A stretch of DNA of 64,000 nt from Candidatus Poribacteria bacterium (GTDB taxonomy: Bacteria; Poribacteria; WGA-4E; WGA-3G), in contig JAPPFM010000059.1 of assembly GCA_028821605.1 (NCBI GenBank), positions 372,001-436,000 on the forward strand, given 5' to 3'. The translations under genes and the position numbers were made by a program. Under the pieces are notes generated by a model. The model was not told where the DNA came from and made no database searches. It saw only the letters and a list, made by a program, of their open reading frames with translations. Below, piece after piece: positions 22,463-28,089 of this stretch; position 1 is the stretch's first letter, and every line of letters begins with the position of its first letter.

Positions 22463-23125
22463 TCATTTTATGTCTTGGTAGGTAAGGTAACAATACTCAA
22501 CCGCCTCAATGACACGTGTCCCGTCCAACTGTACAGGCTCCTTGAAAAACGGCGCATCTAACACCCATGTGTGGTATTCGCCTTGCTCCCCGCACGCGTC
22601 AATCGGCAGCTGCTTTAGTTCTGAAATGAGTTCAGCATCTAAATATCTACCAGCAATAGTCGGTTGAAAGTGTTTTTTGTAAGCGAGGGAGCAGACGACC
22701 TTAAATTTGTCGGAGATAAGAGTATTCAATATCGCGTGCCGATCCAATTCCCATAACGGTTTATGGACCTCCACCAAACCTGCAGCGACTTCCTCTATCC
22801 AATTCGGCATCCCGTCCACCGTAGAAATATCTCCCGTAATTAGCACCTCAATCCCGCTATCTCTAAGCGTCTCGATCTGTTGCCGATAGCTCAATTTATA
22901 AGGCTCAGAAATCGGCATGAACACAATCGGAATTCCGATCTTTCGCGCCTGTATTTCCATGAGTTGTGTTGGATGCGCGTAGAATTGTCGATTATCCGCC
23001 GGAACGAAACAGACAAGTCTCCTTATATCGTAAAGATTTAAGGAGACTTGAAATGCGAGGGCAGAATCTTTTCCACCTGTCCACAGAACAGCTGCTTTCT
23101 TCATGGTATCGCCAAAATTACGCAT
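22463..23125 (-). CDS. Dph6/DUF71-family ATP pyrophosphatase (second copy)
   Basis: 220 residues with the PP-loop VLWTGGKDSALAF near the N-terminus and the DUF71 signatures ITGDIS, RYLDAELI and GEQGEYHTWVLDAPFF. Dph6 in eukaryotes amidates diphthine on EF-2. Bacteria lack diphthamide, so bacterial members probably ligate or amidate other substrates. It overlaps the upstream paralogue by 8 bases (ATGCGTAA) if it starts at 23125; a start at 23104 (MKKAAVLW) is also possible. Confidence 0.8.
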   Translation of the reverse strand: MRNFGDTMKKAAVLWTGGKDSALAFQVSLNLYDIRRLVCFVPADNRQFYAHPTQLMEIQARKIGIPIVFMPISEPYKLSYRQQIETLRDSGIEVLITGDISTVDGMPNWIEEVAAGLVEVHKPLWELDRHAILNTLISDKFKVVCSLAYKKHFQPTIAGRYLDAELISELKQLPIDACGEQGEYHTWVLDAPFFKEPVQLDGTRVIEAVEYCYLTYQDIK

Positions 23126-23885
23126 CCAGTGGCACTACATCCGCATAGACATAGGTCGGTGAGGTATTGCTGCTTGTGTGAATTTTGTCATCTTTATCCT
23201 TAGCAGAAACGATGTCTCTCTGAACGACTTCACCCGGTTTCGCAGCAACAGGTGAAGTAAACATCGGTCCATCAACGACGCACGTATGAAATTCCCCGTT
23301 TTCACCGAGCGGATCCACGCCATCCGGTAGGTCTGCAAGGAGTTCAGTATCAAACCATCGTCCTGCGAAGTCAGGGGGGACTTTGGTAGGATTGAGGGCA
23401 GTGATAATAGTCCGCATGCCAGAGGCAATCATCTTTTCGGCGAGCAGCGTTGTGTCCTCTCCCCATACCGGAAAAATCGGTGTAAAACCGGTCCCCTTGA
23501 GTTTATCTTCGCGGTACGCACGAATATCTTCCAAGAAGAGATCACCGAACGCGAAATGCGACGCACCCAAACCTTCAGGCAACACTTTTACCTCGGCGAG
23601 GAATTTTCGCATCGCTTCTTCGTAAATTGCGTTGGAACATGGATAGGGGATCGGTATCTCGTACAACGGCACGCCGAGTTTCTCCGCTTGCTGTTTCAGC
23701 ACCCACGCTGGTGTCGAGTGGATAGAAACGCGATCAAACGTTTTTGTGACAGTCGTAAAAATACCTCGTACATCGTAGCGGTCCGGTTGCTGACGCAGCG
23801 TATGAAGTGCCCACGCGGAATCTTTGCCCGAAGACCAAGACACCAAAACCGGTATGGGTGTTGCTTCATTCGTTTGTTTTGTCAT
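23118..23885 (-). CDS. Dph6/DUF71-family ATP pyrophosphatase (first copy)
   Basis: 255 residues with the PP-loop VLVSWSSGKDSAWAL and conserved FGDLFLEDIRAYRE, RWFDTELL and GENGEFHTCVVDGPMF. Same family as the following gene but clearly divergent, so not a recent duplication. The tandem arrangement with coupling suggests a two-subunit or two-step enzyme. The substrate is unknown. It lies just downstream of trpG. Confidence 0.82.
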   Translation of the reverse strand: MTKQTNEATPIPVLVSWSSGKDSAWALHTLRQQPDRYDVRGIFTTVTKTFDRVSIHSTPAWVLKQQAEKLGVPLYEIPIPYPCSNAIYEEAMRKFLAEVKVLPEGLGASHFAFGDLFLEDIRAYREDKLKGTGFTPIFPVWGEDTTLLAEKMIASGMRTIITALNPTKVPPDFAGRWFDTELLADLPDGVDPLGENGEFHTCVVDGPMFTSPVAAKPGEVVQRDIVSAKDKDDKIHTSSNTSPTYVYADVVPLDA

Positions 23886-23901: not shown

Positions 23902-24465
23902 TTATAGTGCCAAAAAGTTTGCCAATAGACTCTTTCCAGCAGTCGTCAAAATTGATTCTGGATGGAACTGCACACCCCAAATAGGCAAACTCTTATGTCG
24001 AAGTCCCATGATTTCGTCCTGATCCGTCCAAGCGGTGATCTCAAGGCAATCCGGCAGTGTCTCTTTTTTGACGATAAGCGAATGGTAACGCGTCGCTTCA
24101 AACGGATTATCCAATCCCTCAAAAAGTTCAAGACCATTATGTGCTATCATTGAGGTTTTACCGTGCATCAACCGATCAGCCCTAACAACTTCACCACCGA
24201 ACACGTCTCCGATGCACTGATGTCCGAGACAAACGCCCAAAATCGGGACTTTTCCGGCGAAGTGTTGTATGGTATCGTTGGATATGCCTGCCTCTTTCGG
24301 TGTGCAAGGCCCGGGTGAAATGACAATCCGTTCCGGTGCCAGCGCGTCTAACGCCTCTAATCCAATCTTCCGACTCCGATGAACCTCCAGTTCAGCACCG
24401 AGTTCACCCAAATACTGCACCAAGTTATAGGTAAAGGAGTCGTAGTTATCAATCATTAAAACCAT
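23902..24465 (-). CDS. trpG: Anthranilate/aminodeoxychorismate synthase glutamine amidotransferase subunit
   Basis: A 187-residue class I glutamine amidotransferase. It has [18 protein letters not shown] at the N-terminus, nucleophile Cys in [10 protein letters not shown], and the His-Glu pair in VQFHPESI. It delivers ammonia to TrpE for anthranilate and may also serve PabB for folate. GGGGAGA lies 6 bases before the ATG. It is in the same strand group as trpE, with ridA between. Confidence 0.92.
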
Positions 24466-24504: not shown

Positions 24505-24966
24505 TTAGTCTTCAATTTCGACAATCATTTCAATTATAACTGGAGTCCCAAGGGGTAGTTGTACCATGCCGACTGCGGAACGGGCATGTCTACCTTTATC
24601 GCCGAATACCTCGACGAAAAAATCGGAGGCACCGTTCACAACCGCAGACTGGTCGGTGAAGTCGGGTGCTGAATTGACGAATCCAACCACTTTGACGATA
24701 CGCTTGATTCGTTCAAGATCACCGAAGGCGTGTTTGAGGGTACTCAACAAGCAGATCGCTACCTGGCGCGCCGATGCGTAGCCATCTTCGATCGTCGCAT
24801 CTGTGCCGAGTTGACTTTTATGGACTTTACCTTCGCTTGGCACAAGACCATGCCCTGACGTAAATACAAGATTACCGGTCTGTACAGTCGTGACATAATT
24901 CGCGAGAGGACCCACTGGCTCCGGCAGCTCCACTCCTAATTCTTCAAGCCGTTGTTCTATTTTCAT
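24505..24966 (-). CDS. RidA/YjgF-family enamine deaminase
   Basis: 153 residues of the YjgF/YER057c/UK114 fold. GNLVFTSGHG near residue 35 and a C-terminal RSAVGMVQLPLGTPVIIEMI segment with the substrate-binding Arg are present. RidA hydrolyses reactive enamines such as 2-aminoacrylate released by PLP enzymes. AAGGAG precedes the ATG. It is placed between trpE and trpG, so it may protect the PLP-dependent tryptophan or amino-acid pathways; this link is inference. Confidence 0.9.
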   Translation of the reverse strand: MKIEQRLEELGVELPEPVGPLANYVTTVQTGNLVFTSGHGLVPSEGKVHKSQLGTDATIEDGYASARQVAICLLSTLKHAFGDLERIKRIVKVVGFVNSAPDFTDQSAVVNGASDFFVEVFGDKGRHARSAVGMVQLPLGTPVIIEMIVEIED

Positions 24967-25029: not shown

Positions 25030-25105
25030 TAATAGTTATCAGTTGTCAATTGCAAGTGATGCGTGGTTATGTAACGTCGATGTTAACTGAAAACCGCTAA
25101 CTGTT
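25030..25105. repeat. 7-bp-unit repeat element overlapping the trpE 3' end
   Basis: AGTTATCAGTTGTCAATTGC is followed 40 bases later by GTTAACTGAAAACCGCTAAC. The right arm runs into the last codons of trpE, so the repeat encodes the C-terminus of the protein (EEQLAVFS). Confidence 0.5.
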
Positions 25106-26591
25106 CCTCAGCCAATGCGATAGCACTGAGCATCGCTCGCGCTTTACTGACGGTTTCGTAATACTCAGTTTCAGGTACTGAATCTGCGACAATACCACCA
25201 CCTGCTTGCACATAAGCCGTGCCATCTTTGATAACCGCGGTTCGGATCGTAATCGCTGTGTCTGAACTGCCAGAGAAACTGAAATAACCGACAGCCCCGC
25301 CGTACGTGCCGCGCCGTGTAGATTCAAGTTCGTCGATAATTTCCATTGCCCGTACCTTCGGCGCACCGGAGAGTGTGCCAGCGGGAAGGCATGACCGGAG
25401 GACATCAAAAGCCGTAAAATTCTCGCGCAACTGTCCAATAACATGCGAAACGATATGCATCACATGTGAGAAACGTTCAACTATCATAAGCTCAGTGACT
25501 TCAACAGTGCGATATTCACAGACCCGACCAAGGTCGTTCCGTCCTAAATCCACAAGCATAACGTGCTCCGCGCGTTCCTTTGGATCGGCAAGGAGTATCC
25601 GTTCCAACTCTTTGTCTTCTTCTGGCGTTGTGCCACGCGGGCGTGTGCCTGCAATTGGAACGGTTTGGACAAGCCCATCTTCCACTCTTACCATCATTTC
25701 CGGTGATGCCCCCACAATATCAAAATCATCAAACTTCAGATAATACATGTACGGCGATGGATTGATCACTCGCAACGCCCGATACACATCAAATGAATCT
25801 ACAGATACTGGACAACTGAACCGCTGCGAAAGTACGACCTGGATAATGTCGCCTGCGGCTATGTATTCCTTAGCATGTCTGACCGCGGCTTCGTAATCGG
25901 ATTTCGTGAGATTCGATTGGGGATCGGATATGATTTTATCATACCGCTCCTGATGTTCACCACTATCCGTGCGTAAATGCATTTCGGAAGCAGCTGCGAG
26001 CTTCTCGACTAATGCCTCAATTTTCGCAAGCGCATCCGCATAAGCCCCATCCACATCTCCATCAATATGCGCGTTCGCCACGACCTTGATCTGATGGTTC
26101 ACATGATCAAATATCAAAATCGTTTCAGCAATCATGAAAAAGCAATCCGGAAGCTGCAGTTCATCTTCGGTACTATCTGGCAATTCCTCCACGAAGCGCA
26201 CCATGTCATAACTCATATAACCCACCGCGCCACCGTGGAATTTCGGTAACTCAGCATTGTCAATAGGGCGGTAATCCTGCATCAATTCCTCAAGCGCACG
26301 CAACGGATCCTCATATTTCTGAACTACCGTTTCGCCTTTTTCCAAATACTCAATGGTAACTTGATGCCCTTTACTATGGAAAAGCACGGAAGGTTGACTT
26401 CCCAAGAAAGAGTAGCGTGCAACGTTTTCACCACCTTCCACACTCTCCAACAAGAACGCATAATTGTCTGGCATCAATTTATAGAACGCAGATACCGGTG
26501 TCTCCATATCCGCCAAAATCGAGCGGTATACCGGTATTGTGTTTCCTGATTTCGCTGCCTCGCGAAAATCTTCCAACGTCGGATAATACAT
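25083..26591 (-). CDS. trpE: Anthranilate synthase component I
   Basis: About 502 residues. It converts chorismate plus ammonia (from TrpG) to anthranilate. The N-terminal LLES feedback element reads FLLESVEGG. Chorismate-binding motifs include IAGTRPRGTTPEEDKELE, DLGRNDLGRVC and TLSGAPKVRAMEII. ATG 26591 is chosen because AAAAAGGAG lies 7 bases upstream; the open frame goes 19 codons further. It is probably the second gene of an operon starting at hisI. Confidence 0.95.
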   Translation of the reverse strand: MYYPTLEDFREAAKSGNTIPVYRSILADMETPVSAFYKLMPDNYAFLLESVEGGENVARYSFLGSQPSVLFHSKGHQVTIEYLEKGETVVQKYEDPLRALEELMQDYRPIDNAELPKFHGGAVGYMSYDMVRFVEELPDSTEDELQLPDCFFMIAETILIFDHVNHQIKVVANAHIDGDVDGAYADALAKIEALVEKLAAASEMHLRTDSGEHQERYDKIISDPQSNLTKSDYEAAVRHAKEYIAAGDIIQVVLSQRFSCPVSVDSFDVYRALRVINPSPYMYYLKFDDFDIVGASPEMMVRVEDGLVQTVPIAGTRPRGTTPEEDKELERILLADPKERAEHVMLVDLGRNDLGRVCEYRTVEVTELMIVERFSHVMHIVSHVIGQLRENFTAFDVLRSCLPAGTLSGAPKVRAMEIIDELESTRRGTYGGAVGYFSFSGSSDTAITIRTAVIKDGTAYVQAGGGIVADSVPETEYYETVSKARAMLSAIALAEEQLAVFS

Positions 26592-26731
26592 CAGTAACTC
26601 CTTTTTCAAACCTTTAGCATCAAAGTGCTCAACTTTATAGGACTGCATACAGCAGCACTATTTTTTATTTTTACAAAACCAAGCGGTTTTCGAGAGGATG
26701 CCAAGGTCCGAAAACTGAGAAATATCAAAGA

Positions 26732-27112
26732 CTAATAGACGGCATCTGCCTCGAAAACCTTTTCACCTACAACACGCGTTGACTCTCCGTCGGGGGAGAC
26801 TTCCCGAAAGAAGCAGGAGCGATAGCCGGCATGACACGCTGCTACCTTCTGCTCAACCTTTATCAGCAGGGCATCGCCGTCGCAATCGACAGCAACAGAT
26901 TCAACTGTCTGTGTATGCCCCGAAGTCTCCCCCTTGATCCACAACTTTTGGCGGGAACGGCTCCAGAAGCAGACCCGCCCCGTAGTCAATGTCTCTTTTA
27001 TCGCTTCCGCGTTCATATAACCGACCATCAGGATTTCGTTATTGGTGCGATCCTGAATAACTGCGGCGACCAAGCCATCGCGGTCATATTTGAGTTCCGA
27101 CAAAATTTTCAT
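26732..27112 (-). CDS. hisI: Phosphoribosyl-AMP cyclohydrolase
   Basis: About 126 residues. It opens the adenine ring in the third step of histidine synthesis. Signature regions are MVGYMNAEA, VCFWSRSRQKLWIKGETSGH, and VDCDGDALL for Mg binding, then CHAGYRSCFFR with the zinc Cys/His ligands. The hisE domain is not fused. Start ATG 27112 is supported by AGAGGAGAAT upstream. It stands apart from other his genes and leads a trpE-ridA-trpG group, behind an attenuator-like leader. Confidence 0.93.
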   Translation of the reverse strand: MKILSELKYDRDGLVAAVIQDRTNNEILMVGYMNAEAIKETLTTGRVCFWSRSRQKLWIKGETSGHTQTVESVAVDCDGDALLIKVEQKVAACHAGYRSCFFREVSPDGESTRVVGEKVFEADAVY

Positions 27113-27128
27113 CTGGATTCTCCTCTTT

Positions 27129-27170
27129 AAAACAAAAAACCTTATGCCGCTCGGATTCGTGTGCATAAGG
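27129..27170 (-). terminator. Intrinsic terminator / attenuator before hisI
   Basis: On the minus strand CCTTATGC (27163-27170) and GCATAAGG (27140-27147) form an 8-bp stem with a 15-base loop. It is followed at once by TTTTTTGTTTT, giving a classical Rho-independent terminator. It lies 17 bases upstream of the hisI ATG and 50 bases after the leader-peptide stop, exactly where an attenuator is expected. Confidence 0.8.
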
Positions 27171-27220
27171 CTTCAACTGGACTTAGAAATGAAAAAGACG
27201 ATTTTCAATATGTATTTCAG

Positions 27221-27322
27221 CTATCCATTTAGGCGCACACTCCCCCGCAAGCAATTGGACCCCCACCAATGCCAATGGTTAGACATGCTATGCAGATTGG
27301 AGTGTGAACGTAAAAAGGTCAT
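27221..27322 (-). CDS. Putative His/Trp leader peptide (attenuation)
   Basis: A 33-codon ORF, MTFLRSHSNLHSMSN followed by HWHWWG, in the leader between the promoter (27388-27416) and the terminator (27129-27170). Three Trp and four His codons occur, five of these seven in an uninterrupted run (CAT TGG CAT TGG TGG). The surrounding bases can form competing short stems: CCAAT (27296-27300) with ATTGG, or ATTGG with CCAAT further down. A short GAGAG lies just before the ATG. Ribosome stalling on His or Trp codons would control transcription into hisI-trpE. The sequence is direct observation; the mechanism is inference. Confidence 0.7.
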   Translation of the reverse strand: MTFLRSHSNLHSMSNHWHWWGSNCLRGSVRLNG

Positions 27323-27387
27323 TTCTCTCGCTTTTCAACAACGGTTGATAACTGCCAAATTTTTGGATTCATCCACGCCTAATATTA

Positions 27388-27416
27388 ATAATACCATATT
27401 TACTTTGCATTGTCAA
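27388..27416 (-). promoter_or_regulatory. Promoter of the hisI-trp operon leader
   Basis: Minus-strand TTGACA (27411-27416) and TATTAT (27388-27393), spacer 17. Transcription would start near 27380, giving a leader of about 270 nt. Confidence 0.75.
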
Positions 27417-27504: not shown

Positions 27505-27720
27505 TTATCTACTTCTCCATTCCCAACCTGCTTGTCGGTAAATGCTTCGTAATGTCCCTATCGGGATATTGTCCTTTGTGCGTGAAGGTCGAGGAACAAC
27601 GACCCGTTTTCCTGTATCTGAATGTTTATAGTGATAATGACTGCCGCGCGCATGAGAAAATTCAAAACCGTCCTGCCGGAGCCTTTTATCGACCTGAAGA
27701 AAAGTCAGAACGAACGCCAA
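27505..27720 (-). CDS. hicA: HicA-family mRNA interferase toxin
   Basis: 71 residues. The double-stranded-RNA-binding-like HicA fold is seen: RLRQDGFEFSHARGSHYHY with the catalytic His in GSHYHY, VVVPRPS, then IPIGTLRSIYRQAGW. HicA cleaves mRNA and is neutralised by HicB, encoded 51 bases upstream. The start is TTG 27720 after AGAGGAATTGA; the N-terminus (MAFVLTFLQ) is atypical, so the true start may differ. Confidence 0.82.
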   Translation of the reverse strand: MAFVLTFLQVDKRLRQDGFEFSHARGSHYHYKHSDTGKRVVVPRPSRTKDNIPIGTLRSIYRQAGWEWRSR

Positions 27721-27771: not shown

Positions 27772-28089
27772 TCACAGCGTAGAGACCTTAGACAAGCTGA
27801 CTACCTTCTTAGGAGTCACTTCACGAACTAATGCTCCCAGATCAATTGATACGGTTTTCCATAGCCCACCAGCATAATCAGGGTTGTTTGTATGAAATGT
27901 AATATCCTTAGGATTAGGAATTGGTTCGCTATCAAGTAACAAACCTTCAAGGTAACACTCAACCGCTTCCGCAGCTTGCATCAAGGCCTCCTCAATAGTA
28001 TTTCCGGCACTGAAACACCCAGGCAAATCGGGAACAGTAACCCCGTAACAACTCTCCGGATCTTTGTGGATAACAATAGGATAGCGCAT
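27772..28089 (-). CDS. hicB: HicB-family antitoxin
   Basis: 105 residues with the HicB pattern: CYGVTVPDLPGCFSAGNTIEEALMQAAEAVECYLEGLL. It precedes hicA, the less common antitoxin-first order. AGAGGTG lies upstream of the ATG. The C-terminal part has no obvious long DNA-binding domain. The promoter is at 28302-28330. Confidence 0.88.
   Translation of the reverse strand: MRYPIVIHKDPESCYGVTVPDLPGCFSAGNTIEEALMQAAEAVECYLEGLLLDSEPIPNPKDITFHTNNPDYAGGLWKTVSIDLGALVREVTPKKVVSLSKVSTL

Follow-up and report, generated by a model that had tools for sequence, protein, structure and literature searches.

In the hisL leader of E. coli and Salmonella, the His codons of a leader peptide stand before a histidine gene, with a terminator just upstream of that gene, and the run consists of seven His and no Trp. 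Tryptophan leaders, such as trpL of E. coli and those of Corynebacterium and Streptomyces, combine a short ORF carrying double or triple Trp codons with mutually exclusive antiterminator and terminator helices, and they stand before trp genes; in Actinobacteria the complementary antiterminator/terminator triples are conserved (PMC1262725). According to Lynn et al. 1987, as cited in PMC7041290, the thr attenuator reads both Thr and Ile codons, and both set its specificity. The leaders of ilvGMEDA and ilvBN are likewise rich in branched-chain residues (PMC6123439).

Here we describe a leader in front of the genes hisI, trpE, ridA and trpG, found in a window of 64,000 nucleotides (the whole stretch of DNA that was analysed) from Candidatus Poribacteria (contig JAPPFM010000059.1, assembly GCA_028821605.1). 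This leader resembles the tryptophan leaders in its short Trp-codon ORF, its exclusive helices and its position before trp genes, and complementary triples like those of Actinobacteria are seen here too; it differs from them in that His codons are interleaved with the Trp codons and the first gene is hisI. The comparison of its helix sequences with those of trp leaders was made by Rfam scan alone, and the scan, which covered all 4227 covariance models, gave no relevant match up to E = 10. With hisL the leader shares the His codons before a histidine gene and the terminator just upstream; unlike hisL, it would control only hisI among the his genes, with hisG and hisD lying elsewhere and carrying no such leader. 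As in thrABC and ilvGMEDA/ilvBN, one leader peptide would read more than one amino acid; in those systems, however, the residues share a pathway or a branch point, whereas the pathways of His and Trp are separate, each residue matching a different gene of the operon. The proposed mechanism is one already known from the trp, his, thr and ilv attenuators, and it is the pairing of two unrelated pathways that is unusual. A first-pass annotation of this DNA had called a two-amino-acid leader unusual on the ground that attenuators normally read one, a statement that the thr, ilvGMEDA and ilvBN leaders make too strong. In the open-access literature we found no description of a His/Trp leader or of attenuators in Poribacteria.

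Layout of the locus and spread of the leader

All features lie on the minus strand (Table 1), in the order promoter, 33-codon leader ORF, intrinsic terminator, Shine-Dalgarno sequence of hisI and hisI-trpE-ridA-trpG; every coordinate of this layout in the first-pass annotation was confirmed. The four genes are presumably co-transcribed. Their promoter matches the consensus at 11 of 12 positions, and promoter-like sites (score of at least 10/12) occur upstream of 65% of leaders, compared with 7% of shuffles. The nearest annotated relatives of the genome are Candidatus Poribacteria MAGs, whose trpE is 89% and 81% identical.

Table 1. Features of the hisI-trpE leader and operon, in order of transcription (positions in the window).
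Feature	Position	Strand	Remarks
-35 box, TTGACA	27411..27416	-	
-10 box, TATTAT, TG-extended	27388..27393	-	17-nt spacer to -35 box
Leader peptide ORF, 33 codons, MTFLRSHSNLHSMSNHWHWWGSNCLRGSVRLNG	27221..27322	-	ATG 27322, TAG to 27221; orthologous leader ORFs
Region 1, CACACTCC	27299..27306	-	predicted protector (1:2), pairing with region 2 when no ribosome is present
Regulatory run CAT TGG CAT TGG TGG (His-Trp-His-Trp-Trp)	27263..27277	-	conserved as codons
Region 2, TTGCGGGGGAGTGTGCG	27234..27250	-	antiterminator 5' strand; core GTGTGC 27240-27235
Region 3, CCTTATGCACACGAATCCG	27152..27170	-	core GCACAC 27164-27159; can pair either with region 2 or, through CCTTATGC, with region 4
Region 4, GCATAAGG	27140..27147	-	terminator 3' strand
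T-tract, TTTTTTGTTTT	27129..27139	-	T6-G-T4
Shine-Dalgarno of hisI, AGAGGAG	27120..27126	-	
hisI start, ATG	27112	-	
hisI, phosphoribosyl-AMP cyclohydrolase	26732..27112	-	sole copy found in own genome
trpE, anthranilate synthase component I	25083..26648	-	
ridA-like (YjgF/Rid family) gene	24505..24966	-	
trpG, anthranilate synthase component II	23902..24465	-	

Just upstream of the promoter, on the same strand, lie genes for a HicA-like toxin and a HicB-like antitoxin, both recognised by Pfam (27505-27720 and 27772-28089). After trpG there follow two adjoining, overlapping Dph6-like genes (diphthamide synthase / ATP pyrophosphatase family; 22463-23125 and 23118-23885, minus strand), a pair that is odd for bacteria. 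In this genome, his and trp genes appear to be scattered: trpC, hisG and hisD are found on three separate contigs (C17, C30 and C40), without His or Trp leaders.

We sought hisI and trpE in 85 Poribacteria genomes and compared the regions upstream of them. In nearly all of these genomes hisI stands directly before trpE, and in families outside f1 the two genes are adjacent or overlapping. A leader ORF followed by a downstream stem was found at 74 loci of the phylum; no recognisable leader precedes hisI-trpE in four genomes (G042, G051, G062 and G063). In G062 and G063 the operon follows the apparent end of another gene, suggesting a rearrangement. No second Trp leader was found between hisI and trpE, and no similar leader precedes hisG, hisD or trpC in 19 genomes. 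In some genomes of the genus (loci L005, L007, L009 and L023) an extra stretch of about 200 nt lies between the terminator and hisI.

The pattern CAYTGGCAYTGGTGG occurs once in the genome of the window; 53 of the 85 Poribacteria genomes contain it, in almost every case at the leader. Its presence there is more than chance, since the reversed control pattern gives only 4 matches in all 85 genomes together. Off-target matches in G020, G024, G029, G035 and G042 were rejected, as they stand in other surroundings and lack the attenuator layout.

The gene hisI is also found next to trpE in Omnitrophota, Elusimicrobia, Verrucomicrobia and Acidobacteria, and no leader precedes hisI-trpE at the seven loci examined in these phyla. 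The linkage of the two genes thus looks wider than the switch. At four loci in Omnitrophota, Verrucomicrobia, Elusimicrobia and Acidobacteria (L040, L076, L081 and L095) the sequence in front of hisI resembles the tail of a hisF-type gene, a hint of an older his-trp supraoperon.

Terminator and antiterminator helices

The terminator stem is formed by CCTTATGC (27170-27163) and GCATAAGG (27147-27140), and thus, as in the attenuator class, an intrinsic terminator stands between the leader ORF and the first structural gene. A simple terminator scan did not pick it up, because its 15-nt loop exceeds the 8-nt loop limit of that scan. Across the phylum, 97% of the 74 leaders have, at most 150 nt from their stop codon, a stem of 8 or more pairs together with a T-tract, compared with 3% of block-shuffled control sequences.

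The antiterminator, in turn, is formed by GUGUGC at the end of the leader ORF and GCACAC on the 5' side of the terminator. The core of region 3 varies with lineage: it is GCACAC here, GGCAUAC in family f4, UGGACACA in G061 and CGGGCAUGCUCC in G055. On average, regions 2 and 3 nevertheless remain matched within a lineage. That is, among 19 representatives the complementarity of own 2:3 pairs exceeds that of swapped pairs (20.9 versus 17.2), a result reached in 0 of 10000 permutations. Pairs were counted in an alignment of 56 sequences, whose blocks were cut and registered manually, by pattern, and whose 3' arm was placed by best fit, a procedure that favours the 3:4 count. Pairing reaches 98.9% in the terminator helix, where 6 of the 8 pairs show double changes, and 90% in the antiterminator, where 5 of 8 do; all such covariation counts are of sequences and not of independent events. 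Column 23 of region 3 covaries with region 2 (column 13) and region 4 (column 33) together: its change from U to G is accompanied by G to C in region 2 and A to C in region 4. Such a joint change with both partners is what one expects of a strand that has two of them.

The first-pass annotation had called for alternative folds to be modelled, and models of 20 representatives yield two exclusive states: with a stalled ribosome and region 4 still to be transcribed the fold is mostly 2:3, and with a ribosome placed at the stop codon it is 3:4. One genome, G050, has poor 2:3 pairing, and its model did not yield that helix. Two leaders (L017 and L115, from G022 and G011) carry GCCCCC rather than GCACAC as region 3, in the terminator loop; there the GGGGG that precedes GUGUGC could take part in a shifted pairing that replaces the usual antiterminator. 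An additional hairpin, in which region 1 would protect region 2, is predicted by folding: its stem, CACACUCC/GGAGUGUG, is clear in the genus of the window, and stems of different sequence are predicted in several other genera. The fold of the whole leader as a single sequence, at z = -1.0 only, is not evidence by itself.

The first-pass annotation had also pointed to short CCAAT and ATTGG segments near the codon run. These segments are present but are not kept across families as a switch; the conserved pairing is that of GUGUGC with GCACAC.

The antiterminator thus excludes the terminator, as in known attenuators. Because both helices carry compensatory changes, the element before hisI-trpE is very likely a classical ribosome-mediated transcription attenuator. 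In terms of sequence comparison, its elements, the two mutually exclusive helices and the conserved His and Trp codons are shown. This bears out the first-pass annotation, which had proposed a ribosome-mediated attenuator before hisI-trpE-ridA-trpG and had named as its check an alignment across relatives: in that alignment the codon run is conserved, and so is the terminator, with compensatory changes.

The amino acids probably read by the leader

The peptide flanking the run diverges between families, while the run itself is kept, and Trp is present in all 74 runs. We counted changes by parsimony on a tree built from TrpE/HisI/TrpG proteins, using 59 order-level leaders and excluding two (G024 and G035) with an insertion in the run. 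The five codons of the run changed 9 (first His), 2 (Trp), 1 (middle His), 0 (Trp) and 2 (Trp) times, and each codon around the run changed 7-22 times. At the middle His codon the bases changed 0, 1 and 3 times at codon positions 1, 2 and 3, respectively, and the three third-base changes are synonymous, between CAT and CAC. Judged by these substitutions, the middle His is as constrained as the Trps of the run.

It is important to weigh the possibility that only Trp is read, by the same ribosome-mediated mechanism, and that the His codons are carried along by descent or act as spacers. The constancy of Trp would suit such a leader, as would the first His, which drifts to Asp, Tyr and others, and the leaders with Trp alone that occur in the outgroup. 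The constraint on the middle His, which changed once, like the Trps, and whose third-base changes are only synonymous, argues against it. So do the variants HHWHWWW, HHHWCWWH and HRHW, whose extra His codons recur in diverged families with hisI in the operon, and the run of G050, which has two His and only one Trp. Further runs with His (HRWHWW, HNWHWW, HWHWGW, RHWHWR and WWWHW), like those just named, are found in families whose surrounding peptides differ strongly. Outside the phylum, moreover, six ORFs with a Trp run stand upstream of trpE, and none of these runs contains His.

The occurrence of His can also be compared with the gene content of the operon. His is found in the run of 69 of 70 leaders before hisI-trpE, as against 1 of 4 before trpE without hisI (G060, FWRWWW; G061, NWCWWW; G040, RWWYTSW; G037, RWRH). 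This association has a Fisher p of 0.0002 when counted by species and uncorrected for kinship; at the genus level it is weak, with p = 0.006 or 0.06 depending on how genus g3 is counted. The lineages that lack hisI are the outgroup and, separately, genus g3, which is nested inside the hisI-linked clade (support 0.99), so that the association amounts to two independent contrasts on the tree. There is an exception on each side: G055 has no His in its run (CWWPWW) despite hisI in the operon, which speaks for Trp alone, and G037 keeps one His without hisI. Taken together, we regard a leader that reads Trp only as unlikely, and conclude that the leader probably reads both His and Trp. The dual sensing proposed in the first-pass annotation is to this extent favoured by the comparative evidence, which supports His besides Trp, although it does not amount to proof.

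Another possibility is that HWHWW acts as an arrest peptide, the nascent chain stalling the ribosome, with free Trp or free His as a possible effector. In TnaC it is the nascent chain itself that stalls the ribosome, and control of this type raises expression when the amino acid is in excess. The persistence of one short motif throughout an order, in a peptide that otherwise changes, could be read in this way. However, the run tolerates many rearrangements in the class (HRHW, WWWHW, CWWPWW, WRWWW), which are easier to reconcile with the counting of codons than with a defined arrest sequence, the combination of antiterminator and terminator is typical of attenuators, and a rise with excess amino acid is the wrong response for a biosynthetic operon. 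We consider an arrest peptide very improbable. Equally improbable is an untranslated ORF, with helices serving a riboswitch or an RNA-binding protein, or with a terminator belonging only to an upstream gene: the leader's own Shine-Dalgarno sequence is indeed weak, but the run is constrained at the level of codons, a 39-nt insertion (13 codons) in G024 and G035 keeps the frame, a promoter-like site lies just upstream of the leader, and the Rfam scan gave no family match. In the two leaders with this insertion (L020 and L030), the run is split into HW ... WW within the peptide HWQCEAKTNS...GRIWWH.

A proposed two-input switch

For a leader that reads both amino acids, the arrangement suggests the following mechanism. 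When tRNA-His and tRNA-Trp are both charged, the ribosome would pass HWHWW, reach the stop codon and cover the GUGUGC of region 2; region 3 would then pair with region 4, and transcription would end before hisI. If charged tRNA-His or charged tRNA-Trp ran short, the ribosome would stall inside the 15-nt run and leave region 2 free, so that the 2:3 antiterminator would form and RNA polymerase would read into hisI-trpE-ridA-trpG. Between the last Trp codon and the GUGUGC core lie 22 nt, and from the end of the core it is 14 nt to the last base of the leader stop codon. Since the His and Trp codons all lie within 15 nt, a stall at any of them should leave nearly the same footprint. The stalling of the ribosome, and the response to His and Trp themselves, are what we infer from this arrangement. 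The switch would thus act as an OR gate, responding to a shortage of His or of Trp, and would suit an operon whose genes supply part of each pathway.

It seems fairly likely that this two-input attenuator, joining two unrelated pathways, is phylum-wide, its leader codons being gained and lost with the gene content of the operon. If so, an attenuator in the uncultured phylum Poribacteria would compute the OR of two unrelated amino acids, and lineages that have hisI in the operon could be set against those that lack it, as a natural experiment on whether regulatory codons track operon content.
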